Part shown: positions 3,465 to 43,625 of the stretch, piece after piece
How positions within the stretch are numbered: the stretch's first letter is position 1
Layout: the number at the start of each line of letters is the position of its first letter
The notes under the pieces: generated by a model
The model's input: the letters and a program-made list of their open reading frames with translations, nothing else
Told to the model about the DNA's origin: nothing
Database searches by the model: none
Program-made: the position numbers and the translations under genes
Assembly: GCF_001913705.1 (NCBI RefSeq)
Contig: NZ_MKQD01000028.1
Span: 1-45,926 of the forward strand
Source: Thalassotalea sp. PP2-459
Lineage (GTDB): Bacteria > Pseudomonadota > Gammaproteobacteria > Enterobacterales > Alteromonadaceae
Length of the DNA stretch: 45,926 bases
Direction: 5' to 3'

Positions 3465-4082
3465 ATGGCGACGCTAAAACCGAAAAAACAAAGTACGTTT
3501 TTAGCATGGATGTTCCGCATGCCGTTGATCAAACGATGGGCATTAATGTTTTGTGTGAAACCTGAAAACGTTGCTGAACATTCACACCAAGTAGCCATAG
3601 TGGCACACTTGCTAGCGGTGATAAAAAATAAAAAATTCGGTGGTAATATCAATCCTGACAGAGCCGCAACGATTGCGCTTTATCACGAGGCAAGTGAAAC
3701 CCGTTATGGGGATATAGTGTCCCCTACTAAGTATGCAAACCCTGAAATTGCCCGAGAGTTTAAAAAGATTGAATCGCATGCTGAACGAGAATGTTTGCAA
3801 TCATTGCCCGAAGAATTTCAATCGGTATTTTACGACATTATTGTTCAAGATCATGTTGAACCTGCTTACAAGGCACTTGTAAAAGCTGCTGACATACTTG
3901 TCGCTTACATTAAAGCGGTTGATGAGCTTAATCATAACAACCATGAATTTGATCATGTAGAAGAACGTCTTGGTCGTAAGCTAGATGATTTGAAAAAAGA
4001 CTTGCCCGAGGTTGAGTATTTCTTGGCAACCTTTTTACCCGCATGTTCTGCTACGGTTGATAAGCTGGCAAAAGACGGCTAA
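3465..4082 (+). CDS. yfbR: 5'-deoxynucleotidase YfbR (HD superfamily)
   Basis: A cytoplasmic HD-domain phosphohydrolase that dephosphorylates deoxyribonucleoside 5'-monophosphates, part of dNMP turnover and the thymidylate salvage route. Its 205 residues compare with 199 in E. coli. The conserved features are R24-W25, H39 in AEHSHQ, E78, D83 in GD and D143 in KAADIL. The HD motif itself reads H74-E75 (YHEASE) where E. coli YfbR has HDASE, so a metal-ligand Asp is replaced by Glu. The start has a good ribosome site (TGGAG) and sits 12 bases after alaA. It ends 35 bases before the convergent stop of the VC2046-type gene. Confidence 0.9.
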   Translation: MATLKPKKQSTFLAWMFRMPLIKRWALMFCVKPENVAEHSHQVAIVAHLLAVIKNKKFGGNINPDRAATIALYHEASETRYGDIVSPTKYANPEIAREFKKIESHAERECLQSLPEEFQSVFYDIIVQDHVEPAYKALVKAADILVAYIKAVDELNHNNHEFDHVEERLGRKLDDLKKDLPEVEYFLATFLPACSATVDKLAKDG

Positions 4083-4117: not shown

Positions 4118-4690
4118 TTAAATGACTTGAGGCTGCAAAGGTGAATTAACGACAGTATTTTGCAAAGTCTGTAGCCATGATTTAGCGTCAAATTCTTTAC
4201 GTTTTGTCGGTAATACGTCTGATTTTTGATGCTTTAGCTGACAATATAAGCTTGTGTTTTCTAATACATTACTAGGAATATGACATTTATCATTTCTAAA
4301 AGCGATTGGTTTTTCCTTCAACATATTAGTCAAATGTATACTAGAAAATAAGCCTTTCTCAGCTAATTCTGCTTGGCCATATTGGCCAATTTGCGTAATC
4401 TGCGATAGCGCAAGAGGTGCTTTATCGGGCAATGAAAAATAACGCCTTAAGCTATCATCACTTACTTCTGGCTCGGTAATTTCATCATGAGGTAGATGAA
4501 ATTGACTATGCATTCGAACATCATCAACCAGCATCGCCAACATTAATGAGAAGTCACTGTGCATAGGTTTGCGTACTGATTCATTCAGTCGTTGACCTAA
4601 TTGTGCTTCTTCTAATAACGGTTTAGTTGTGGTTTCAGTGATAGCCAAAGTAAGTTCACTACAATAATGCTGACAACTTACTATCGGCAA
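4118..4690 (-). CDS. VC2046/SO_2500 family protein
   Basis: This is a conserved hypothetical of about 190 residues. The core (LGQRLNESV, then SDFSLMLAMLVDDVRMHSQF) matches what I remember of the VC2046/SO_2500 family of Vibrio and Shewanella, whose function is unknown. No signal peptide, membrane segment or catalytic motif is visible. The start is uncertain: the frame opens after a TAA at 4700-4702, the first usable codon is TTG at 4690, another TTG follows at residue 15, and the first ATG comes only at about residue 43, inside the conserved core. None has a clear ribosome site. It lies downstream of the cdd-deoA terminator. Confidence 0.55.
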   Translation of the reverse strand: MPIVSCQHYCSELTLAITETTTKPLLEEAQLGQRLNESVRKPMHSDFSLMLAMLVDDVRMHSQFHLPHDEITEPEVSDDSLRRYFSLPDKAPLALSQITQIGQYGQAELAEKGLFSSIHLTNMLKEKPIAFRNDKCHIPSNVLENTSLYCQLKHQKSDVLPTKRKEFDAKSWLQTLQNTVVNSPLQPQVI

Positions 4691-4776: not shown

Positions 4777-6084
4777 CTAAACGATATGCTGATAGATTAG
4801 CGTTTGTTCTGGTGTGCTTTCTGAAATAGATACAGCATCAAGGTAACCTTGACTAGCTATCGCAAGCTCTTGTTTGTTATTAGCATGACAACGAGCAATC
4901 ACATCGCCTGCGCAAACTTTAGCACCTAAAGGTTTAATAGCATTAAAACCTACACTATGATCAATTTTCTGACCATTTGCAGTGCGCCCACCTTTCATTC
5001 CTACCACTTGCATACCTATTTCACGGGTATTCATTTCACTAATGTAGCCACTTTTATCTGCCACAATATCACCGACCTGTTCGGCCTTTTGCATTGTTTT
5101 CCATGGGTTTTCGATAAAGTCAGTGGGACCACCCAACTGTGAAATCATACGATCAAATCGTTCTGCAGCTTGTCCTGAAGACAGCGCTTTATTGACTAAG
5201 ACTTCAGCTGTACCTTTATCCTGTGTAACACCAGCGCTTATCAACATTGAACACGCAAGTTCGACAGTTACGCCATGTAATCTGGGACAACGACTTTTAC
5301 CGGTTAAATAATCCACAGTCTCAATCATCTCTAACGCATTACCTGCCGAAAAACCTAACACTTGGTTCATGTCAGTGATAATAGCTTGTGTGCGCACACC
5401 TGCACCATTGGCAACACTAACAATAGACTTGGCGAGCGCTTGTGCTCCAGCTAAATCTGTCATCATGGCACCATTACCCACTTTAATATCCATCACTAAT
5501 GAATCTAAACCGGCAGCCAATTTTTTGGATAAAATAGAAGCAGTGATCAATGGAATGGACTCGACAGTAGAGGTAACATCACGAATAGCATAGAGTCTTT
5601 TATCAGCTGGCGCTAAACGATCTGTTTGAGTAATAATCGCCATATTATTCTGTTTTACGAACTGCTTAAAATGTTCAACACTAGGCTGTACATCAACACC
5701 TGAAATACTTTCAAGCTTATCAGAAGTACCGCCGGTATGGCCCAAGCCTCTCCCTGCAATCATAGGTACATAAACACCACATGAAGCTACAATGGCTGCC
5801 AACATAAAGCTCACTTTATCTCCGACGCCACCTGTTGAGTGTTTATCAACTATTGGACCATCTAGTTCTGGCCATGACAAAACATCACCTGAACGCATCA
5901 TATTATCTGTTAATGCAATCACCTCTTCTGTGACCATACCTTGTTGAAAGATCGCCATCGCCATCGCACCAACCTGGGCATCATTAAAAGTATTGTCGAC
6001 TAAACCTGTCGCAAAAGCGTTTATTTGAGCATTATTAAGCGATTTTCCATCGCGTTTAAGACGTATTATTTCCTGTGGTAGCAT
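4777..6084 (-). CDS. deoA: Thymidine phosphorylase DeoA
   Basis: Catalyses phosphorolysis of thymidine (and deoxyuridine) to the base and 2-deoxyribose-1-phosphate in the cytoplasm, feeding deoxynucleosides into carbon metabolism. Its 435 residues compare with 440 in E. coli. The glycine-rich phosphate-binding segment KHSTGGVGDKVS lies at about 81-92 and GHTGGTSDKLES at about 115-126, with the TSDKLE signature intact. The ATG has AAGGA about eight bases upstream and follows the cdd stop by 11 bases, so cdd and deoA form an operon: cytidine to uridine, deoxycytidine to deoxyuridine, then phosphorolysis. A RutR-like operator lies before cdd and probably controls both. Confidence 0.95.
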   Translation of the reverse strand: MLPQEIIRLKRDGKSLNNAQINAFATGLVDNTFNDAQVGAMAMAIFQQGMVTEEVIALTDNMMRSGDVLSWPELDGPIVDKHSTGGVGDKVSFMLAAIVASCGVYVPMIAGRGLGHTGGTSDKLESISGVDVQPSVEHFKQFVKQNNMAIITQTDRLAPADKRLYAIRDVTSTVESIPLITASILSKKLAAGLDSLVMDIKVGNGAMMTDLAGAQALAKSIVSVANGAGVRTQAIITDMNQVLGFSAGNALEMIETVDYLTGKSRCPRLHGVTVELACSMLISAGVTQDKGTAEVLVNKALSSGQAAERFDRMISQLGGPTDFIENPWKTMQKAEQVGDIVADKSGYISEMNTREIGMQVVGMKGGRTANGQKIDHSVGFNAIKPLGAKVCAGDVIARCHANNKQELAIASQGYLDAVSISESTPEQTLIYQHIV

Positions 6085-6095
6085 GTTTAAAGTCC

Positions 6096-6512
6096 TTAGA
6101 TTAAGTCTTTCGATAAAAAGGCATCGGGTAACAGATCCGCCACCGACCAGTGTTTTTGTTGATTCAAGTGGTTCACTGAGGTAACTTTTCCATCCTCAGG
6201 CATGAACTCTGCTATCACTTGTCTACACGCACCACAAGGAGGCGTGAGCTTCTCTTGCTCGGTATAAACAACAAGATGCTCAAACGTTTGATTACCCATT
6301 ACTACCGCATTCGCGATGCAATTGCGTTCAGCACACACACCTAAACCATATGAAGCGTTCTCAACATTACAGCCATTGAATATTTGCTGATCTTTGGTCA
6401 TTAAGCTTGCTCCTACCTGAAATTGACTATAGGGCGCGTATGCATTCTTGTAGGCAACTTTTGCCGCACTCACTAACGCATCAATGTTTTCAATTTTGTT
6501 GTTCTCTTGCAT
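6096..6512 (-). CDS. cdd: Cytidine deaminase (short, tetrameric type)
   Basis: Deaminates cytidine and deoxycytidine to uridine and deoxyuridine with a catalytic zinc. At 138 residues it is the short tetrameric form, not the 294-residue E. coli dimeric form. Zinc ligands and the proton shuttle are visible: C60 and E62 in GVCAERN, and C93 and C96 in PPCGACRQ; the substrate-binding NVENASYG precedes them. The frame could run up to 6581, but that extension runs into the neighbouring terminator. The ATG at 6512 has AAGG seven bases upstream and gives the family length. It is the first gene of a cdd-deoA operon, with a RutR-like palindrome 20-35 bases before its start. Confidence 0.93.
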   Translation of the reverse strand: MQENNKIENIDALVSAAKVAYKNAYAPYSQFQVGASLMTKDQQIFNGCNVENASYGLGVCAERNCIANAVVMGNQTFEHLVVYTEQEKLTPPCGACRQVIAEFMPEDGKVTSVNHLNQQKHWSVADLLPDAFLSKDLI

Positions 6513-6531
6513 GTGCAACCTTAAAAATAAA

Positions 6532-6547
6532 TTAACCATTTGGTCAG
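6532..6547. promoter_or_regulatory. RutR-like operator before cdd-deoA
   Basis: Read on the minus strand the site is CTGACCAAATGGTTAA. It matches 12 of the 14 fixed positions of the E. coli RutR consensus TTGACCAnnTGGTCAA, which is established knowledge. It sits 20 bases upstream of the cdd ATG and downstream of the TonB receptor terminator, in the only space where a cdd promoter can lie. A RutR-like regulator is encoded 4 kb away. Confidence 0.6.
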
Positions 6548-6570
6548 GTTTTATCTTAACGAATTCCATA

Positions 6571-6602
6571 AAAAAAGCCAACAGATTATCTGTTGGCTTT
6601 TT
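6571..6602 (-). terminator. Terminator of the TonB receptor gene (possibly bidirectional)
   Basis: A perfect nine-pair stem, arms 6577-6585 and 6589-6597, has a three-base loop and is flanked by A6 on the left and T5 on the right. On the minus strand it lies 23 bases after the TonB receptor stop and separates that gene from cdd, which therefore needs its own promoter. Confidence 0.85.
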
Positions 6603-6619
6603 AGAGAGGTTAACTCAAC

Positions 6620-9600
6620 TTAGAAAACGTACTTAATACCAATCTTCATTGACCAAGTAGACTCACGGTCTTTCCATTCAACTGGTGACTCACCTTGGCT
6701 TACGTTAGCACTTTCGTATACATATTGACCGGCATCATTAATGCTGTAATCAAGTATTTCTGTTGCTGACTGACCAAAAGGCAATTGATAAATTCTACCA
6801 GCATCCTCATCGAAAATTGCTAGCGCATTTTTAATATCAAAGTAGATTAATCCTTTATGACCTTCCATAAACCCTGGAATTTCTTGCTCTAAACGTAAGT
6901 CCATCGATGTTGTCCACGGAGCACGATATTCATTCTTAGGCAAGTAACCACCCGTTGAAGAAATACCTACTGTGTTTAACTCTGCCATAATTTCGTCATA
7001 GCTTAAGCCATTAACAAAATCTACTGCGGCATCATCTGCCCCTGTAGGAATATAAGGCAAGTTTGAGCTGGTTAAGTCAAGTTCACCTGAAATACCGTTT
7101 CTGTTGTTCCAACCCAATAAGTAACTGTATGGCCTACCTGATTTACGTTCCCAGAACATATGAAACGCAGTGTTGTAACCATCAAAAATTTCAGTATTAT
7201 ACGAAAGGTTTAACGTTAATCTGTGTTTAACTTCGTATGCAGAAGTTCCCACTTCAGGGTTTTCTGGATCAATCACTGGGTTATAATTATACGCAGTATT
7301 GGTAGAAGTACCTGTTGCATCAATTTTATTACGAATTGATGAATGCGTATAAGAGAAGTTAGCTTTAAAGCCAGTATCCCAGCTTTTCGCTAAGCTTAAT
7401 GTTTCAATTAATGAATGACCACCAGAAGTGTTTGTTAGCAATACATCACGGTTATCACGATTAGGATCAGCTAATGTATATATTGGACGACCTTCTACAG
7501 TATAACCATTATTACCTTTAGACGTATCTAAGGTGCGTGATAAATCAGACCACGTCATGTCTTTTTCATTGTCTTTATAAAGTATTTCCGCACTGATACG
7601 CCAATCATCACCAAGACCATAATCTGAAAGATCCGCAATGTAATCTGCCGCTAAGCTATATTGCCAAGTTGTTGGTATTTCAAAATTCGGGTCTATGGCA
7701 TCAATATTTGTATTAGGACCACCAAGCACAGTATTAGCAACTTGATCTTGCGCATGCTGAGGAACACTATTTAAATCAGCATTTTGCAAAAAGGTATTTT
7801 CTGCAATTACATCATTAAAACTTTTATATGACGCGATTCGTGAACCGTCATTCGTGAATGCATTTGAAATAAATACATTTGGACGACCACCACTAAAACG
7901 ACCAACACCACCACGAATTGTTAATTCATCCGTTGCATCCCATGTAAAACCTACACGTGGCATAAACACATCTAAACCATCAAGGTTTTCATTGTTGCTA
8001 TAACCGTAACGATCAATAAACCCTTGGTTTGCATTTGGCTTATCATCATTAATAGTTAGCTCATATCGTAAGCCATAAGTAACGTTTAATGTATCTGTTA
8101 CATCCCAGCTATCTTCAATATATAATGCATGATTGCCTAAACTAAATGCCGCTGCTGCATCATCACGATTTAAGCTTGGGTTATTTTGATATTCGAACCA
8201 GTTTGCATTACCGTTTTCAAAGTCATCAATGCTGTCAAAATACCAAGAACCGAGATAATGCTGCATAAAGATGTTATACACATCTACTTTTTCATATTCC
8301 CAGCCAAATGAAATAGCGTGATCTTCATGAAGGTATTCACCGCTAATTCTAAACTGGAAAGTTTCATTGGTTAATTCATTAGCATGACGGCTATCATCAG
8401 GACCGATCATAATTTGACCGCCATTTACCGTATCAATTTTCGCTTCACCAAATGCTAATCCGCCTAATGGAATTTGGCCATTGACTGATTCTTTATGAGA
8501 AATTTTTACTTCGGTAGAAAAGTTTTCATTCCAGTTAGAGAACACCTGCCCAACATACGTATCAAACTCATTTGAGCGATTATACCAGTGTGAAGATAAA
8601 TACAGCTGATCTGAGTAACCAGAACCTTGGTTACCAGCACTGTTACTGAAGCCGTGTGAATAAGTTAATGAAGCACGATGATCATCATTGATGTTCCAGT
8701 CTAATTTTAAAGAATATTTTTCATCTTCTAATGGAATTGAATCATTCCAGCTACCTGCATCATAACCATATTTAGATTGAGCAATGTTTACAACACGATC
8801 AACCTCTGCTTGAGAAATTTGGCTAACCTTATTCGCCACACTTGCATCAGATGGGCCTTTATCAACGGCACTTGGCGATTCAAACGTTTCATATGATGCG
8901 AAAAAGAACAATGTATCCTTGATGATTGGACCACCTAATGTAGCGCCCCAAGTTTCTTCGTCAAAACTTAAATCGATATCCTCACCCGTTTCAGGATGCT
9001 CAGGTGTTCCAGCCCATGAATCTTTTGCTTGCTCAATGAACATTGAACCATGAAATTCATTCGTACCTGACTTAGTTACAACACTAATTTTACCACCAGA
9101 GAAACCACCTTCTTTAGCAGTAAAAGGCGCTACTGCCACACTAATTTGGTCGATTGAATCAAAAGAGATAGGTGAACGTTCAGTTGGATACCCATTGCCT
9201 GCTAAACCAAAATCATCATTAAGGTTAACACCGTCAACTGCTAAGCTATTATATCTAGGGTTAGAACCGGCAAGAGATAATGACACGCCGTCATTTCCTA
9301 CTACAGCCATAGGGTTTTGACGTACAATATCTTTTAGATCACGATTAAACGCAGGTGACTTTGTTAAATCATCACCACTAAAAATACTTGAAGAACCTTT
9401 AGAAGGGTCAAAAAACTCACCAGCCCCTGTTACAGCAATTCGTTCGATGTCTTCACTAGATAATGTTTCACTGATTCGGAAAACATCACCTAACGTAATA
9501 TAAATACCTTCAAGTTTTTTATCTTTATGCGTATCTGAATCAATAGTAACCGTGTAAGGACCACCTACACGCAAACCTCGAGCAGAGAATGCTCCAGAGT

Positions 9601-9796
9601 CGTTTACTGTTAATACTTTTTTTGTACCTGATGGTTCATGGACTATAGTAATAGTTGCGTCTTTAACCGCCGCACCTTGCGAAGTTAAAATATTACCACG
9701 CATAGAAGAAGACGTATCATCAGCAAAAACAGGTGTAGATAATCCAAGTGCGAGGATCACTGCACCCGAAATGAGTGAGAGGCGTTGGGTTTTCAT
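6620..9796 (-). CDS. Oar-like TonB-dependent outer-membrane receptor
   Basis: A 1058-residue outer-membrane receptor that should import a ligand using TonB and the proton motive force. The signal peptide is MKTQ...STPVFA, cleaved before DD at about residue 25. Next comes a carboxypeptidase-regulatory-like beta domain (about 30-115), a plug domain with NPMAVVGND, YNSLAVDGVNLND and SVVTKSGTNEFHG, and a long beta-barrel ending in an aromatic residue (IKYVF). Upstream in-frame codons to 9889 would add 31 residues before the signal peptide; the ATG at 9796 is preferred. The ligand is unknown, but a RutR-like operator in its promoter and the nearby cdd, deoA, nuclease-like and phosphatase genes suggest nucleosides, nucleotides or DNA fragments (inference). 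Confidence 0.85.
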   Translation of the reverse strand: MKTQRLSLISGAVILALGLSTPVFADDTSSSMRGNILTSQGAAVKDATITIVHEPSGTKKVLTVNDSGAFSARGLRVGGPYTVTIDSDTHKDKKLEGIYITLGDVFRISETLSSEDIERIAVTGAGEFFDPSKGSSSIFSGDDLTKSPAFNRDLKDIVRQNPMAVVGNDGVSLSLAGSNPRYNSLAVDGVNLNDDFGLAGNGYPTERSPISFDSIDQISVAVAPFTAKEGGFSGGKISVVTKSGTNEFHGSMFIEQAKDSWAGTPEHPETGEDIDLSFDEETWGATLGGPIIKDTLFFFASYETFESPSAVDKGPSDASVANKVSQISQAEVDRVVNIAQSKYGYDAGSWNDSIPLEDEKYSLKLDWNINDDHRASLTYSHGFSNSAGNQGSGYSDQLYLSSHWYNRSNEFDTYVGQVFSNWNENFSTEVKISHKESVNGQIPLGGLAFGEAKIDTVNGGQIMIGPDDSRHANELTNETFQFRISGEYLHEDHAISFGWEYEKVDVYNIFMQHYLGSWYFDSIDDFENGNANWFEYQNNPSLNRDDAAAAFSLGNHALYIEDSWDVTDTLNVTYGLRYELTINDDKPNANQGFIDRYGYSNNENLDGLDVFMPRVGFTWDATDELTIRGGVGRFSGGRPNVFISNAFTNDGSRIASYKSFNDVIAENTFLQNADLNSVPQHAQDQVANTVLGGPNTNIDAIDPNFEIPTTWQYSLAADYIADLSDYGLGDDWRISAEILYKDNEKDMTWSDLSRTLDTSKGNNGYTVEGRPIYTLADPNRDNRDVLLTNTSGGHSLIETLSLAKSWDTGFKANFSYTHSSIRNKIDATGTSTNTAYNYNPVIDPENPEVGTSAYEVKHRLTLNLSYNTEIFDGYNTAFHMFWERKSGRPYSYLLGWNNRNGISGELDLTSSNLPYIPTGADDAAVDFVNGLSYDEIMAELNTVGISSTGGYLPKNEYRAPWTTSMDLRLEQEIPGFMEGHKGLIYFDIKNALAIFDEDAGRIYQLPFGQSATEILDYSINDAGQYVYESANVSQGESPVEWKDRESTWSMKIGIKYVF

Positions 9797-9833
9797 GTTG
9801 TTAATTTCCCTTGGTGTATGTTTTATTTTATTA

Positions 9834-9862
9834 GTCATACATTTTGTTGACCAGTTGTTCAA
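9834..9862 (-). promoter_or_regulatory. Predicted promoter of the TonB receptor gene
   Basis: On the minus strand a -35-like TTGAAC (9857-9862) and a -10-like TATGAC (9834-9839) are separated by exactly 17 bases, predicting a start near 9827 and a leader of about 30 bases. The RutR-like operator occupies the -35 and most of the spacer, which fits repression. Confidence 0.5.
9847..9862. promoter_or_regulatory. RutR-like operator before the TonB receptor
   Basis: The plus-strand sequence TTGACCAGTTGTTCAA matches 13 of the 14 fixed positions of the E. coli RutR consensus TTGACCAnnTGGTCAA. It lies 50 bases upstream of the receptor ATG, inside its predicted promoter, and in the same intergenic region as the divergent RutR-like gene. 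Confidence 0.7.
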
Positions 9863-10268
9863 AAAGCACAACAAAGATGTACGGTTCAAAGTCTTTATTT
9901 ATTATAAATTAGAGCAGACTTTTTTTACACTTTTATTACACTATTTCACAAACATGATAAATACAAGTTAAAAAACAATTAAACATCAGCGTTAAAAAAC
10001 CGACCAAAAAAATAAAAATAGATATAAAACAAATGGTTAAACATTAATTACTCTAATGGCATTTATTTTGATTTTTTCTCTATTTTAATATGATTTTTTT
10101 CTAAAGAATCGACACCTTATAATATAACCATTTAGTCAAGATATTAATAAGTATCCATATAAACAAATAAAAACAATGAGTTACATATTAAAACTTAAAT
10201 AACCAAATAATCATATAATATTTCATTCACAATACTAATTATTCATTTCATATCGAATAACTTAGCTT

Positions 10269-10298
10269 TTGTAAAAGTGTCTTTATAAGCGTTATAAT
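10269..10298 (+). promoter_or_regulatory. Predicted promoter of the RutR-like operon
   Basis: A TTGTAA hexamer (10269-10274) and a perfect TATAAT (10293-10298) are 18 bases apart. This predicts a start near 10305 and a leader of about 130 bases before the regulator ATG at 10435. Confidence 0.55.
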
Positions 10299-10398
10299 CA
10301 TCACTTTATTAACGCTATTTATTGCGATAAAGGCGAACTACCGCATTGTGATTGCATGCAGAATACAATCTCTGCTAGTGTAAGCAGCATTAAAATAG

Positions 10399-10414
10399 TC
10401 GACCGATTAGACAA
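10399..10414. promoter_or_regulatory. Weak RutR-like site before the regulator
   Basis: TCGACCGATTAGACAA matches 10 of the 14 fixed positions of the RutR consensus and ends 20 bases before the regulator start. The position suits autoregulation, but the match is poor and the two halves are not symmetric. Confidence 0.25.
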
Positions 10415-10434
10415 CCATAATAATAAGTAAACAT

Positions 10435-11064
10435 ATGACTGATACTTCAAACAAAAAGCAAGGAAAGATCCGCATCAAAAGCGAGCAAAAAATATTAATT
10501 GCTGCGCAAGATGAATTCATAACCCATGGCTATAAAGGTGCTACCGTTCAATCAATAGCAGACCAAGCCGGATTGCCAAAAGCAAATGTATTGTACTATT
10601 TTAAAAATAAAGAAAATATTTACCATGCGGTATTAGAACAAACATTAGACATGTGGGATGAAGGAATTGGTGATATTATTTATGAAGATGGCCCGAAAGT
10701 CGCCATCGAAAAGTTTGTTGCTGCTAAAGTTAACATGTCATTTAAAGCACCTAAAGCGTCTAAAATATATGCCATGGAGATTATTCAAGGCGCACAACAT
10801 TTAAAAGAATTTGCTCGAACATATCTAAGAAAGTGGGTTAGAGAAAAATCAAAAGTGTTTCAACAGTGGATTAACGAAGGAAGGATGACAGAAGTAGATC
10901 CTGTCAACTTAATTTTCTTAATTTGGTCAACAACGCAACACTATGCTGATTTTGAAACACAAATTCTGACGATAATGAACCGTGCAGATTATGAGGAAGA
11001 GGATATAGAGCATGTTACGCAGTTTCTAACAGGCTTTATTTTAAAAGGACTAGGAATAAAATAA
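10435..11064 (+). CDS. RutR-like TetR-family regulator
   Basis: A 209-residue TetR repressor-type protein. The helix-turn-helix lies at about residues 38-57 (ATVQSIADQAGLPKANVLYYF). The ligand domain resembles E. coli RutR (YcdC-type C-terminal domain): compare ASKIYAMEIIQGAQHL and, near 155-172, NLIFLIWSTTQHYADFETQ with RutR's HLIFMIWASTQHYADFATQ. RutR binds uracil and thymine and releases DNA; a pyrimidine effector is inferred here. It is first in a tight unit with the EEP and phosphatase genes (two bases to the next ATG). Operators like the RutR consensus lie before the TonB receptor and cdd-deoA, both related to pyrimidine use. I leave the symbol empty because orthology with rutR is unproven. 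Confidence 0.8.
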   Translation: MTDTSNKKQGKIRIKSEQKILIAAQDEFITHGYKGATVQSIADQAGLPKANVLYYFKNKENIYHAVLEQTLDMWDEGIGDIIYEDGPKVAIEKFVAAKVNMSFKAPKASKIYAMEIIQGAQHLKEFARTYLRKWVREKSKVFQQWINEGRMTEVDPVNLIFLIWSTTQHYADFETQILTIMNRADYEEEDIEHVTQFLTGFILKGLGIK

Positions 11065-11066
11065 AC

Positions 11067-12245
11067 ATGAAACTACTTATTACAATTACAGGCTTTTTAC
11101 TGCTAATGTCTACTCACGTTCAAGCGAAAAAACCGATACGCGTTGCAACCTTTAATGTCAGTATGGAAGCGTTAAATTATATTCAACAAAACGATAACAG
11201 CAAGGTCACAGGTACAGAACTTCTTGATGCAATGAAAAATGAGCATCAACAAATCAAAAATATTGCCGAAATTATTCAACGTGTGAACCCTGATATATTA
11301 TTAATCAATGAGATTGATAACCATAGAAATGTTGGCCGAGAAGCCATGCTAACATTCATGGATAACTTTTTATCGGTTGGTCAAAATGGACAACAGCCGA
11401 TCCATTATTCTTTTTCGTACCAATCGCCAGTAAACACAGGTGTTTTATTACCAGCAGATGCTAATGGTGATGGAAAAATAACACACCCTAGCGACACTCA
11501 CGGTTTTGGATATTTTCCAGGACAATATTCAATGGCGATAATGTCGCGCTACCCCATTGATGCTCAATATATTAGAACCTTTCAGAAATTTAAATGGAGT
11601 GATATGCCTGGCGCATTAAAGCCAGTAGACCCTAAAACTGGAGAAGATTACTACTCTAAAGAAGTATGGCAAGCATTAAGGTTATCTTCTAAAACCCATT
11701 GGGATATACCTATTCGAATATACGATACCACATTACACGTACTCGCCAGTCACCCTACTCCACCAGTATTTGATGGACCAGAAGATAGAAATGGTAAACG
11801 TAATCACGATGAAATACGATTTTGGCATGATTATATAACACCAGGTAAAAGTGATTATATCTATGATGACAACAAAAAATCTGGTGGCTTAAATAAAGGC
11901 GATTTGTTCGTGATTGCTGGAGATTTAAATGCATCCCCAGTTGAAGGCGATGCTATCAATAGCAGTATAAGTGCACTCATTGATCATCCTAATGTTCAAG
12001 ATCCTAAACCAAGTAGTAATGCAGCGTCACAACACTCACCAGACAACAAACATGCCGCTAATCATACGGCCTATTGGCGTATGAGAGCAGACTATTTATT
12101 ACCTTCTAAGCATGGCTTTAAAGTGGTTGATTCAGGTGTTTTTTGGCCAGAAATAAATGATGATAATTACCGGTTAATAGAGTCTAGAAAGGCGTCTTCA
12201 GATCATCGTTTAGTCTGGGTTGATATTTTATTAACCGATTATTAA
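11067..12245 (+). CDS. Secreted endonuclease/exonuclease/phosphatase-family protein
   Basis: A 392-residue metal-dependent phosphoesterase of the DNase I-like (EEP) fold, exported by a signal peptide (residues 1-20, cut after HVQA). Active-site landmarks are N30 in ATFNV, E82 in NEID, the GDLNASP segment in the C-terminal third, MRADYLLPS and the terminal SDH motif (ASSDHRLVW). Residues about 131-138 (DANGDGKI) form an EF-hand/dockerin-like calcium loop. The family includes nucleases, lipid phosphodiesterases and inositol phosphatases, so the substrate is not fixed. The operon with a RutR-like regulator and an alkaline phosphatase suggests breakdown of nucleic acids or nucleotides outside the cytoplasm. 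The start is two bases after the regulator stop. Confidence 0.8.
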   Translation: MKLLITITGFLLLMSTHVQAKKPIRVATFNVSMEALNYIQQNDNSKVTGTELLDAMKNEHQQIKNIAEIIQRVNPDILLINEIDNHRNVGREAMLTFMDNFLSVGQNGQQPIHYSFSYQSPVNTGVLLPADANGDGKITHPSDTHGFGYFPGQYSMAIMSRYPIDAQYIRTFQKFKWSDMPGALKPVDPKTGEDYYSKEVWQALRLSSKTHWDIPIRIYDTTLHVLASHPTPPVFDGPEDRNGKRNHDEIRFWHDYITPGKSDYIYDDNKKSGGLNKGDLFVIAGDLNASPVEGDAINSSISALIDHPNVQDPKPSSNAASQHSPDNKHAANHTAYWRMRADYLLPSKHGFKVVDSGVFWPEINDDNYRLIESRKASSDHRLVWVDILLTDY

Positions 12246-12261
12246 TTTTATGGAAAAGCAA

Positions 12262-13644
12262 ATGAAAAAACTGTTAATCTCTCTTGCTGTTGCTTCAATC
12301 ACTTTAGGTTGTAATGCGACAAGTGAAGTCACCAAACAACCTGTAACAAAAACCCCCATTACTAATGTGATTATGATTGTTGCGGATGGCATGGGCCCAG
12401 CTTTCCCTACAGCATACCGTTATTATGCCGACAACCCATCAACACCCAATATAGAGCAAACTGTTTTTGACAAACATCTTGTTGGCATGAGCAGCACCTA
12501 TCCAGCCCAGGAATCTGGCCGAGTTACTGACTCTGCTGCTGGTGCAACTGCCCTAGCAGCGGGTGTTAAAACATATAATTCAGCCATTAGTGTTGATGTC
12601 AACAAACAGCCCGTTGAAACGGTATTACAACGCGCCAAAGCACTAGGTAAAAAAACGGGTGTGGTCGTAACTTCACAAGTTAATCATGCTACACCAGCGG
12701 CATACATCACTCACAATGAAAGTCGAAAAAACTATAATGCCATTGCTGATAGCTATATTGATAATGGGATAAATGTCGATGTGTTATTCGGTGGTGGTTG
12801 GCAGTATTTCATTCGAGATGATAGAAATTTAGTGAATGAGTTCAAACAAGCAGGTTTTGATTATATCGACAACTTCGAACTACTTTCGCAAACAAATACA
12901 AACAATAAACTACTTGGTTTATTCGCAGATGTTGGTTTACCTCCAGCCTTAGATAATGGCGGAGGTAAATTATTAGAAATGACGAAAACCGCGTTGTCTC
13001 ATTTAGAAAACCCTAATGGCTTTTTTATGCTAGTTGAAGCAAGCCAAGTTGATTGGGCTGGGCACAGCAACGATATAAATAGTGCAATGGCTGAAATGCA
13101 CGATTTAGCACAAACATTAGCGTATTTAGAAAGTTATGTTGATTCTAATCCAAATACACAAGTAATTTTAACTGCAGATCATAGCACTGGTGGCTTAACA
13201 TTAGCGGCTAAAGGTGAATACCGATGGTCACCTGAAATGCTACGAGAGATGAAAACATCAACGTCTGCTGCCGCTCAAGTTCTGGCTGATAGTGAAATTT
13301 CAAAAACAAGCCTAAGTGCTGCACTAGCAAATATAACACTAGAAGACGAAGATGTTACAAACGTTATTGAAGCGAAAGAAAAAGCGTTATCTAAGCTACA
13401 AGCATATTTACAGTTAACCCCTGAGCAACAAAAGAAGCAACGTAAACCAAGTGTTAAGTATGCGCTGTATCGCGCATTAAATAGCATTATTGATCGCAAA
13501 ACGAATACAGGCTGGACAACCTCCGGTCATACAGCGGTAGATGTACCTGTTTACGCCATTGGTGCCCAAAGTGCTATTTTTGAAGGATTAATAGATAACA
13601 CTGATATTGCGAAGGGTGTGTTTACCTTGATTGAAAATAACTAG
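12262..13644 (+). CDS. Alkaline phosphatase (PhoA family), probable lipoprotein
   Basis: Hydrolyses phosphomonoesters in the periplasm or at the outer surface. The 460 residues begin with a short signal ending in ITLGC, a plausible lipobox with C17. The nucleophile is S91 in VTDSAAGATA. Metal ligands are seen in IVADGMG (D42), EASQVDWAGH (about 259-268), TADHST (about 305-310) and SGHTAVD near the end; R155 in SRK corresponds to the phosphate-binding Arg. At the E. coli D153 and K328 positions it has His (H142) and Trp (W265), as in the Vibrio cold-active enzyme. The frame has an ATG at 12250, but the ATG at 12262 has GGA seven bases upstream and starts the signal directly. It is last in the regulator-EEP-phosphatase unit. 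Confidence 0.88.
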   Translation: MKKLLISLAVASITLGCNATSEVTKQPVTKTPITNVIMIVADGMGPAFPTAYRYYADNPSTPNIEQTVFDKHLVGMSSTYPAQESGRVTDSAAGATALAAGVKTYNSAISVDVNKQPVETVLQRAKALGKKTGVVVTSQVNHATPAAYITHNESRKNYNAIADSYIDNGINVDVLFGGGWQYFIRDDRNLVNEFKQAGFDYIDNFELLSQTNTNNKLLGLFADVGLPPALDNGGGKLLEMTKTALSHLENPNGFFMLVEASQVDWAGHSNDINSAMAEMHDLAQTLAYLESYVDSNPNTQVILTADHSTGGLTLAAKGEYRWSPEMLREMKTSTSAAAQVLADSEISKTSLSAALANITLEDEDVTNVIEAKEKALSKLQAYLQLTPEQQKKQRKPSVKYALYRALNSIIDRKTNTGWTTSGHTAVDVPVYAIGAQSAIFEGLIDNTDIAKGVFTLIENN

Positions 13645-42251: not shown

Positions 42252-43625
42252 GTGACTTTTAAACAACTTGTAGCAGATCAAAAGACATATTTTAATACGC
42301 TTGTCACTCGTGATATTCAATGGCGTAAAACTCAATTACGTCAAATCAATAAAATGGTTCAAGAAAATGAGCAACGTTTTTTAGATGTCTTATCTGAAGA
42401 TCTTGGTAAGCCGTCCTTAGAAAGCTGGATGACAGAAGTTTCTTACGTTGCTGGTGACGTTGATCATGTCATTAAACGGTTGAACAAATGGTCAAAGAAG
42501 CGAAGAGTATCAACGCCGATTGTTGCACAACCAGGCCGTTCATACATTCAGCCAGAGCCTTTAGGTAGCGTTTTAATTATTGGTGCATGGAACTACCCTG
42601 TACAGCTTGTACTAGCTCCACTTGTTGCAGCAATTTCTGCGGGTAATTGTGCGATAATCAAACCTTCAGAGCTTGCACCGGCAACCTCTGCATTACTCGC
42701 TTCACTTGTTCCACAATATTTAGACAGTAATGCTATTTCAGTTGTTGAAGGCGCTGTTGACGAAACTACCGCATTACTCGCACTTCCATTTGATCATATT
42801 ATGTACACAGGTAATGGACAAGTTGCTCGAATAATCATGACTGCCGCAGCCAAAAACCTGACACCCGTTACCTTAGAATTAGGTGGTAAAAGCCCTGTTT
42901 TCGTTGATCGAAGTGCTGATATCAACATCAGTGCACAGCGTATTGCATGGGGTAAGTGGCTGAATGCAGGACAAACTTGTATTGCTCCAGATTATGTCAT
43001 GGTTGAGCATTCTTTATTGCCAGCATTCATTACAGCGCTAAAAAAACAACTTCAAACTATGTTTGGCACAAATCCTAAAGTGAGTAAGTCTTACGGACGC
43101 ATTGTTAATCAACGACACTGTGAAAGAATTGCGAGTTATCTCACCAGTGGTGACATTGTTCATGGTGGCGATATTGACATTGATGAACGATACATTTCAC
43201 CAACGATTGTCGTTGATCCCGACTTAGATAGCCCTTTAATGACGGAAGAAATCTTTGGTGCGATATTACCTATTATTACTGTGCAAAATTTCGAGGCAGC
43301 AAAAGCAACGGTAGTGACAAGAGACAAACCATTAGCCGCGTATTTATTTACCCGCGATAAAACTCAGGAACAACAATGGTTAAACGAGATCAGTAGCGGC
43401 AGTTTATGCGTAAATGATGTGATAATGTTTAACGCCGTGCCAGATCTGCCATTTGGTGGTGTAGGTCCTAGCGGAATGGGACAATACAGTGGTAAGGCGG
43501 GGTTTGATAACTTCAGCCACTTAAAGTCGGTATTAAAACGTCCGTTCTTAAAAGATTTACCTGTTCGTTTCGCGCCATTTACTGCTTTAAAGTTTAAGCT
43601 GTTAAAGCTTATTAGGCACTTGTAG
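42252..43625 (+). CDS. Class 3-type aldehyde dehydrogenase
   Basis: NAD(P)-dependent oxidation of an aldehyde to the acid. The 457 residues lack the N-terminal extension of ALDH1/2 types and resemble ALDH3 and coniferyl-aldehyde dehydrogenases. The cofactor-binding GNGQVARIIMTAAAK segment, the LELGGKSP general base Glu (about 208) and the nucleophile Cys in NAGQTCIAPDY (about 240) are visible, and the hydrophobic C-terminus (FTALKFKLLKLIRHL) could bind a membrane. The start is GTG at 42252 with GAGGA four bases upstream. The neighbourhood of fadE and acyl-CoA dehydrogenase suggests a fatty aldehyde. Confidence 0.88.
   Translation: MTFKQLVADQKTYFNTLVTRDIQWRKTQLRQINKMVQENEQRFLDVLSEDLGKPSLESWMTEVSYVAGDVDHVIKRLNKWSKKRRVSTPIVAQPGRSYIQPEPLGSVLIIGAWNYPVQLVLAPLVAAISAGNCAIIKPSELAPATSALLASLVPQYLDSNAISVVEGAVDETTALLALPFDHIMYTGNGQVARIIMTAAAKNLTPVTLELGGKSPVFVDRSADINISAQRIAWGKWLNAGQTCIAPDYVMVEHSLLPAFITALKKQLQTMFGTNPKVSKSYGRIVNQRHCERIASYLTSGDIVHGGDIDIDERYISPTIVVDPDLDSPLMTEEIFGAILPIITVQNFEAAKATVVTRDKPLAAYLFTRDKTQEQQWLNEISSGSLCVNDVIMFNAVPDLPFGGVGPSGMGQYSGKAGFDNFSHLKSVLKRPFLKDLPVRFAPFTALKFKLLKLIRHL

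Follow-up and report, generated by a model that had tools for sequence, protein, structure and literature searches.

The window analysed here, the whole stretch of 45,926 nucleotides from contig NZ_MKQD01000028.1 of Thalassotalea sp. PP2-459, contains a locus which is fairly likely to be the centre of a regulon for scavenging nucleic acids and nucleotides under the control of a RutR-family repressor. The locus is arranged head-to-head, with the genes deoA, cdd and that of a large TonB-dependent receptor on the minus strand and the genes for the regulator, an EEP-fold phosphoesterase and an alkaline phosphatase on the plus strand. Genes, operator-like boxes, their conservation in relatives and the linkage of the receptor to other nucleoside genes were observed directly in the genomes compared. 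The gene order and the two main boxes named in the original prediction, which had proposed a RutR-like pyrimidine regulon, were recovered by our gene calls and pattern searches, the boxes with 1 and 2 mismatches at positions 9847 and 6532, respectively.

The plus-strand genes begin with that of a RutR-family TetR regulator of 209 amino acids (10435-11064; PF08362 with 149.7 bits at a cut-off of 25), the sole PF08362 protein found in this genome. It is followed after 2 bases by the gene for the EEP-fold phosphoesterase of 392 amino acids (11067-12245; PF03372) and after another 4 bases by that for the alkaline phosphatase (12250-13644; PF00245 with 308.6 bits), in agreement with the tight operon proposed initially. 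The signal peptide of the phosphoesterase and the LGC lipobox of the phosphatase, which is probably a lipoprotein, were judged by eye. The phosphoesterase residues E82, H229, D286, N288, D379 and H380, presumably the usual EEP catalytic set, were invariant across 29 sequences. The closest solved relative of the phosphatase was the cold-active alkaline phosphatase 3a52, and sequence matching at E ≤ 0.001 retrieved no solved structure for either the phosphoesterase or the receptor. The latter is an Oar-like TonB-dependent receptor of 1058 amino acids (6620-9796, minus strand; PF25183, PF13620, PF07715) and a candidate gate for nucleosides or nucleotides. PF25183 scored above its cut-off, and both plug and beta-barrel were recognised by PF07715 (25.4 vs. 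23.9 bits) and PF00593 (36 vs. 27 bits). The other minus-strand genes are cdd for cytidine deaminase (6096-6512; TIGR01354 above cut-off) and deoA for thymidine phosphorylase (4777-6084; TIGR02643 above cut-off). Receptor gene and cdd probably start with the ATG codons at 9796 and 6512, while the list of open reading frames starts the former at 9889 and extends the latter to 6581.

Candidate operators were scored by their mismatches to TTGACCANNTGGTCAA, which we take to be the RutR box consensus. The box before the receptor gene, TTGACCAGTTGTTCAA (9847-9862), differs from it at one position, and the box before cdd-deoA, TTAACCATTTGGTCAG (6532-6547), at two. In Markov simulations with the regions' own dinucleotide make-up, the observed match was reached in 2 of 4000 cases for the receptor/regulator gap and in 1 of 4000 for cdd. 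The regulator's own promoter carries weak boxes only in this genome, namely a putative middle operator, ATAACCATTTAGTCAA (10124-10139; 3 mismatches), and a very weak one close to the regulator gene (10399-10414; 4 mismatches). In the genomes G011, G034 and G016, stronger boxes are located no more than about 115 bp from the start of the regulator gene, and the best match found to the consensus in the rutA/rutR gap of E. coli has 3 mismatches. The three boxes of the divergent gap are spaced by 277 bp (9847 to 10124) and 275 bp (10124 to 10399), and a spacing of 273-275 bp recurs in G002, G003, G016 and locus L141, with several other loci lacking it; such a spacing may permit looping, but common descent is also possible. 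A box with 1 mismatch at 42480 was taken as a chance match, since it sits within an aldehyde-dehydrogenase-like gene, and a scan of the promoter regions for CRP sites gave nothing over background.

Searching 59 genomes (own included) for the regulator yielded 14 (own included) with a copy of at least 66% identity, which we refer to as orthologue genomes. The orthologues of the 13 relatives are 66-100% identical to the regulator, and the next strong matches show 33-44%. Receptor and regulator genes stand divergently in all 13 relatives, the order is kept from the receptor to the phosphatase gene in 12, and it is complete from deoA to the phosphatase gene in 10. In a second set of 19 named loci from Colwellia, Thalassotalea, Psychrosphaera and Pseudocolwellia (L145 apparently represents the same assembly as G027, as judged from identical proteins), 13 show the full order, two lack the phosphatase gene only, two are cut by contig ends, L162 is in pieces, and L156 is different. 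In L156, a regulator orthologue (66%) occurs in another setting, together with an acetyl-CoA-synthetase-like gene, an aldehyde dehydrogenase gene and a second RutR homologue nearby. DeoA was found in all 14 orthologue genomes vs. 5 of 16 genomes without the orthologue. The original prediction had proposed to check related genomes for the boxes, and the outcome was positive: counting the own locus, 9 of 11 first-set loci have a box with up to 2 mismatches upstream of cdd, all 15 named loci with cdd have one with up to 3, and a box with up to 2 mismatches was found upstream of deoA or cdd in 10 of the 14 orthologue genomes vs. none of 5 controls having deoA without the orthologue. Boxes with up to 3 mismatches were also present in the receptor/regulator gap (13 of 14 first-set loci, 13 of 15 named loci), which is weaker evidence because these stretches are 480-970 bp long. 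The earlier proposal that the phosphoesterases belong to one functional set with the other genes is supported as well.

The boxes also extend beyond the locus. Inspection of all 26 sites which this genome has at up to 2 mismatches placed 20 within genes and 6 outside according to the open reading frame calls. Four of the latter precede the receptor gene, cdd, an hpt-like gene or lie in the gap between deoB and udk; the other two were judged unrelated by eye. The observed match was reached in none of 4000 Markov simulations for the deoB/udk gap and in 2 of 4000 for the hpt gap. On one side of the first gap lies deoB and on the other udk-nupC-deoC-tdk-upp (assigned by NCBIfam; upp is truncated at the border of the region retrieved). 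The hpt-like gene (PF00156, no NCBIfam match), whose best solved relatives are purine phosphoribosyltransferases, is followed by a gene for a type I phosphodiesterase/nucleotide pyrophosphatase (PF01663). We trained a motif on 50 sites before cdd and in the receptor/regulator gap and applied it to regions outside the training set with a threshold of 13 bits. Among the orthologue genomes, 9 of 12 have the motif before deoB vs. none of 6 controls without the orthologue (G031 and G034 were unscored due to contig ends, and G034 has a box with 1 mismatch there), and 8 of 13 have it before the hpt-like gene (G031 has no hpt-like match) vs. 1 of 13 controls. The one positive control, G018, and the next best, G006, both contain a RutR homologue of about 40% identity. 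Scores as high as those of deoB and hpt occur in only 2 or 3 of 255 upstream regions taken as background, and Fisher tests gave p of about 0.01 for each contrast, with relatedness of the genomes ignored.

A survey of all sites with at most 1 mismatch outside this genome, which covered every other orthologue genome except G029 (12 of 13), gave 48 sites vs. 21 in the reversed control, 30 of them outside genes by our own tally. Among these 30, 21 precede genes with a recognisable connection: 13 stand before genes of this locus or cdd-deoA, four before deoB, in deoB/udk or in hpt-like/deoD gaps (in G034, the boxed hpt-like gene is divergent from deoD), and the remaining four before genes for Endonuclease I with an EEP protein (G010), an EEP nuclease-like protein (G031), an S1/P1 nuclease (G011) and another receptor of the same family (G031). 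Because the boxed targets go beyond pyrimidines, with deoB, the purine-phosphoribosyltransferase-like gene and the nucleotide pyrophosphatase gene among them, they point to a regulon for scavenging nucleic acids, not one confined to pyrimidines. The pyrimidine regulon proposed originally is too narrow in view of deoB, nupC, the purine-phosphoribosyltransferase-like and pyrophosphatase genes, deoD in G034 and extracellular nucleases in single relatives. Its description as a rewired regulon is reasonable, with boxes on targets which E. coli places under CytR and DeoR.

Related arrangements were seen with more distant regulators. In locus L045 of G011 (9687-13184), a regulator paralogue of 41% identity is followed by the genes for adenosine deaminase (add), cytidine deaminase (cdd) and thymidine phosphorylase (deoA), with a perfect box before cdd. 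In L219 of Aliikangiella marina, a RutR homologue (44%) follows nupC and a cytidine-deaminase-type gene, and boxes with 0 and 1 mismatches lie between deoA and nupC, which suggests that RutR-family proteins are tied to nucleosides more widely.

The regulator itself was recognised as a member of the RutR family by PF08362, but it missed the NCBIfam cut-offs for RutR (TIGR03613, 166.1 vs. 368 bits; NF011584, 146.7 vs. 230 bits). RutA was found above cut-off in none of the 14 orthologue genomes (weak matches in 3) vs. 7 of 14 controls, E. coli among these. From its sequence, the protein thus appears to be a RutR-family member, not demonstrably an E. coli-type RutR, and the term RutR-like of the original prediction is apt in the family sense only. 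In a tree, 30 orthologue rows formed a clade (100/99; 31 with G031), separate from the paralogues of about 40% identity in the same genomes and from the Halomonas and Marinomonas groups; E. coli RutR sat on a very long branch and its placement is unsure. The uracil site of E. coli RutR, according to the available part of PMC10891134, consists of W77 and W167, which stack on the ligand, Q171, Y97 acting through a water, and Q179 from the other subunit. Equivalents of W77, W167, Q171 and Q179, i.e. four of five uracil contacts, are retained in all 31 orthologues, and equivalents of K52 and K62, described there as lysines of the DNA-binding part (PMC10891134), are lysines in 31 of 31. The same four contacts are kept in the 78 rows tallied of the 90 in the tree, with one exception (a paralogue with E for Q179). 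Because they are also conserved in Halomonadaceae regulators, including that of L168 beside a xanthine-dehydrogenase-type gene pair (assigned by Pfam), they point to a nucleobase-like ligand, not to uracil specifically; uracil or thymine is a plausible signal from the pocket residues. A rut operon beside the Marinomonas regulators, guessed from gene sizes, was dropped after NCBIfam had identified rsuA-like and hutZ-like genes instead. In L161 of an uncultured Oleispira sp., a near-outgroup regulator lies downstream of the genes for an ABC transporter whose binding protein is of the Bmp/PnrA type (assigned by Pfam), and the genes of L163 are similar in size.

Linkage of the receptor was analysed in the orthologue genomes and in a control set of 16 same-family genomes without a regulator orthologue. 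The receptor query retrieved 19 genes at E ≤ 1e-60 from the 14 orthologue genomes (20 rows, two being parts of one), 14 of which occupy the slot described here, one stands in tandem beside it, three lie by udk (one between udk and deoB) and one behind a box with 1 mismatch. The family was also present in 14 of the 16 controls with 17 genes, of which 13 lie within about 4.2 kb of nupC/udk, often divergently from udk, and three more beside or at most 3.3 kb from an S1/P1 nuclease gene, while that of G013 has neither neighbour. This shows that receptor and nucleoside genes are linked independently of the regulator, and, as a separate line of support, argues that the receptor is probably a gate for nucleosides or nucleotides. 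Boxes with up to 2 mismatches stand by the control receptors of G012 and G018, both having a RutR homologue of about 40% identity, vs. none in nine receptor-udk intervals scanned from controls without a RutR homologue, so the presence of a box follows that of a RutR-family protein in most cases. In the control loci L328-L340, the Oar-like receptor adjoins nupC-udk. Downstream of nupC in L335, the one case scanned, lies a gene for a 2OG-Fe(II) oxygenase of 279 amino acids, and many other control loci have a gene of 269-301 amino acids in this position.

The receptor gene seems to have been exchanged independently of its neighbours, as judged from sequence identities. Among 276 pairs of six-gene loci, the identities of regulator, phosphoesterase, phosphatase, DeoA and Cdd are mutually correlated (Spearman 0.37-0.65), whereas receptor identity vs. 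those of the neighbours gave values of -0.07 to 0.03 (the pairs are not independent). For instance, the receptor is 91% identical to that of Colwellia sp. 1_MG-2023, compared to 61% for the phosphoesterase, 54% for the phosphatase, 60% for Cdd and 66% for DeoA. Conversely, two Psychrosphaera loci (L146 and L148) share 80-95% identity in the neighbours vs. 38% in the receptor, and several receptor subfamilies of less than 50% identity occupy one conserved slot (L032-L044, L141-L157). Along the receptor, the correlation with the neighbours is -0.10 to 0.08, except for the first ~100 residues (0.17), and the alike DNA of L146 and L148 extends into the 5' part of the receptor gene, so the exchange may end there. 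Because 11 of the 14 orthologue genomes contain a single receptor of the family, replacement is more probable than an unequal loss of tandem copies, although G016 shows that such copies can exist. Phage T6 and colicin K use the nucleoside porin Tsx of E. coli as their receptor (PMC11658791, available part), and by analogy a similar phage or bacteriocin pressure would fit the exchange.

Some further features were noted around deoA and cdd. An inverted repeat with a T-run was seen by eye between the receptor gene and cdd (about 6577-6603) and is absent from the terminator-scan list. A minus-strand open reading frame of 190 amino acids downstream of deoA (4118-4690) is kept in three relatives of the same genus (48-89%) and has no NCBIfam match. 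A 5'-deoxynucleotidase gene near deoA (3465-4082; NF003009 above cut-off) adjoins an aminotransferase gene and has no box at up to 2 mismatches.

Several results weigh against a scavenging regulon under this regulator. Genome-wide, the pattern with up to 2 mismatches shows no enrichment, with 26 sites vs. 26 in the reversed control, and the training sites of the motif had been chosen as best matches to the consensus used here. The orthologue genomes are related, four of them belonging to one genus, so the counts are not independent. Good sites are missing before cdd/deoA in G034, G015 and G031, before deoB in G015, G004 and G016 (the last two have a box nearer to udk) and before the hpt-like gene in G015, G004, G010, G011 and G016. 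G007 has a RutR homologue, yet its receptor-udk interval is without a box. Some intergenic boxes with 0-1 mismatches in relatives stand before genes with no evident connection; the other 9 of the 30 extragenic sites stand before genes for an alginate lyase, ribose-phosphate diphosphokinase, glucose-6-phosphate isomerase, another TonB receptor and a histidine phosphatase and before pckA, polA, gshA and a chemotaxis receptor gene, these last four identified by eye only. The S1/P1 nuclease was dropped as a core member, being boxed in 1 of 12 orthologue genomes tested. Finally, Y97, the residue of the bridging water, is not conserved, and the 31 orthologues have F (27) or I (4) instead.

The loss of Y97 would also fit a different signal for the same regulon, such as a nucleoside, a purine base or a deoxyribose derivative instead of uracil or thymine, which we regard as possible but rather doubtful. 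Such a signal would suit boxed targets like deoB and the purine-phosphoribosyltransferase-like gene (divergent from deoD in G034), the RutR-family relative of Halomonadaceae beside the xanthine-dehydrogenase-type pair (L168; similar-sized genes in others) and a Colwellia paralogue beside deoD (L203), which show that the family is not tied to pyrimidines. It is opposed by the presence of DeoA, which releases thymine and uracil, in every orthologue genome and by the invariance of both stacking tryptophans and both glutamines in 31 of 31 sequences, but the latter is not decisive, as purine-linked relatives keep these residues too. The receptor might alternatively be of an exporting Oar type which secretes the EEP enzyme or the phosphatase and imports no nutrient, since Myxococcus Oar is needed for PopC secretion (PMC6434023 and PMC11658791, available parts) and receptor and EEP genes are adjacent here and in 4 of 15 control loci. 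We consider this improbable, because no EEP homologue was found near the receptor in the other 11 of 15 control loci, both enzymes have their own Sec-type signals (by eye), and the receptor type varies while the EEP enzyme remains.

Alkaline phosphatases and phosphodiesterases are classical Pho members, which would agree with a PhoB-controlled phosphorus-acquisition locus with incidental boxes. This is a slim prospect, since no Pho-box match in the promoter regions comes closer than 5 mismatches in 18 positions, which is no better than in the rest of the window, and RutR-type boxes recur at nucleoside genes outside the training set. The same slight weight is given to the idea that the boxes mainly serve the paralogue of about 40% identity or another TetR protein, leaving the local regulator a narrower role. 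In G012 and G018, boxes do occur with no more than a paralogue present, and in G011 the paralogue precedes add-cdd-deoA with its perfect box before cdd; yet this genome carries boxes with a single PF08362 protein, and in G006, which has a paralogue, neither deoA nor deoB is preceded by a good box. CytR appears unlikely as the regulator, as no close homologue was found in 20 genomes searched: the best matches are at most 40% identical, with LacI-type relatives at 26-40% in 18 of these genomes, and the best match of this genome (38%) has no nucleoside gene recognised by eye within 1.5 kb.

The predicted scavenging regulon resembles several known systems in part. With the RutR regulon of E. coli (rutAG, carAB), it shares the TetR_C_3 family, a palindromic box of about 16 bp and four of five uracil contacts, but its targets are the receptor, phosphoesterases, nucleoside transport and salvage, and RutA is above cut-off in 0 of 14 genomes. 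Its targets cdd, deo genes, nupC and outer-membrane nucleoside entry resemble those of the CytR/DeoR regulons of E. coli, from which it differs by its RutR/TetR-family regulator and by a TonB-dependent outer-membrane gate in place of the porin Tsx. Tsx would share with the receptor the probable role of a nucleoside gate, and exchange would be expected for a gate used by phages or bacteriocins, but Tsx is a porin without energy coupling and a different protein type. The Oar/PopC system of Myxococcus likewise involves a large TonB-dependent barrel, a likeness judged from the domain make-up, but Oar is linked to a protease and the receptor described here to nupC/udk and nucleases. The RegPrecise reconstruction of RutR comprises 68 regulons in 13 groups with ~11 genes each and includes Colwellia psychrerythraea (PMC5343134, available part); in this part of the article no receptor or nucleoside targets are named for RutR, and overlap with the database is possible. 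A 2024 review of TonB receptors mentions nucleosides only in connection with Tsx in the part available (PMC11658791). Literature searching, in part by broad keywords and with RegPrecise and most subscription papers outside its scope, gave among the papers listed no title or abstract opening describing this regulon or receptor.

In the mechanism we propose, DNA binding, repression, ligand, secretion and receptor substrate are all predictions from the genes and boxes. Phosphodiesterases outside the inner membrane (the EEP enzyme, the pyrophosphatase/phosphodiesterase encoded after the hpt-like gene and extracellular nucleases in some relatives) would act together with the alkaline phosphatase to convert nucleic acids and nucleotides to nucleosides. 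The Oar-like TonB receptor would carry nucleosides, nucleotides or short oligonucleotides through the outer membrane, NupC would carry nucleosides through the inner membrane, and Cdd, DeoA, DeoB, DeoC, Udk, Tdk, Upp and the hpt-like enzyme would lead them into salvage and sugar-phosphate catabolism. Without a signal, the regulator would occupy the palindromes of about 16 bp before the receptor gene, cdd-deoA, deoB and the divergent udk-nupC-deoC-tdk-upp, and the hpt-like gene with its pyrophosphatase gene (hpt-npp); in many relatives, the regulator would also occupy one before its own operon. Uracil or thymine, set free as a base in the DeoA reaction, would then enter the Trp-Trp-Gln-Gln pocket and release the regulator from the DNA.

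Dissolved nucleic acids are a large source of carbon, nitrogen and phosphorus in the sea, and to our knowledge the passage of their breakdown products through the outer membrane of Gram-negative bacteria is known mainly from Tsx. We tentatively extend the regulon to a wider proposal, towards which we are slightly more doubtful than inclined: Oar-like receptors may serve across marine Alteromonadales as TonB-dependent gates for nucleosides, nucleotides or short oligonucleotides, driven by energy in contrast to their counterpart Tsx; the whole scavenging programme which E. coli leaves to CytR/DeoR may in the Colwellia group be run by a RutR-family switch; and the receptor cassette may be exchanged between diverged loci, as expected from its use by phages or bacteriocins. 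Besides a regulator, its putative operators and some dozen target genes, the locus singles out a candidate receptor family and opens the substrate of these unassigned TonB receptors to direct testing. It is also a case of one regulator family spread across different nucleobase pathways.

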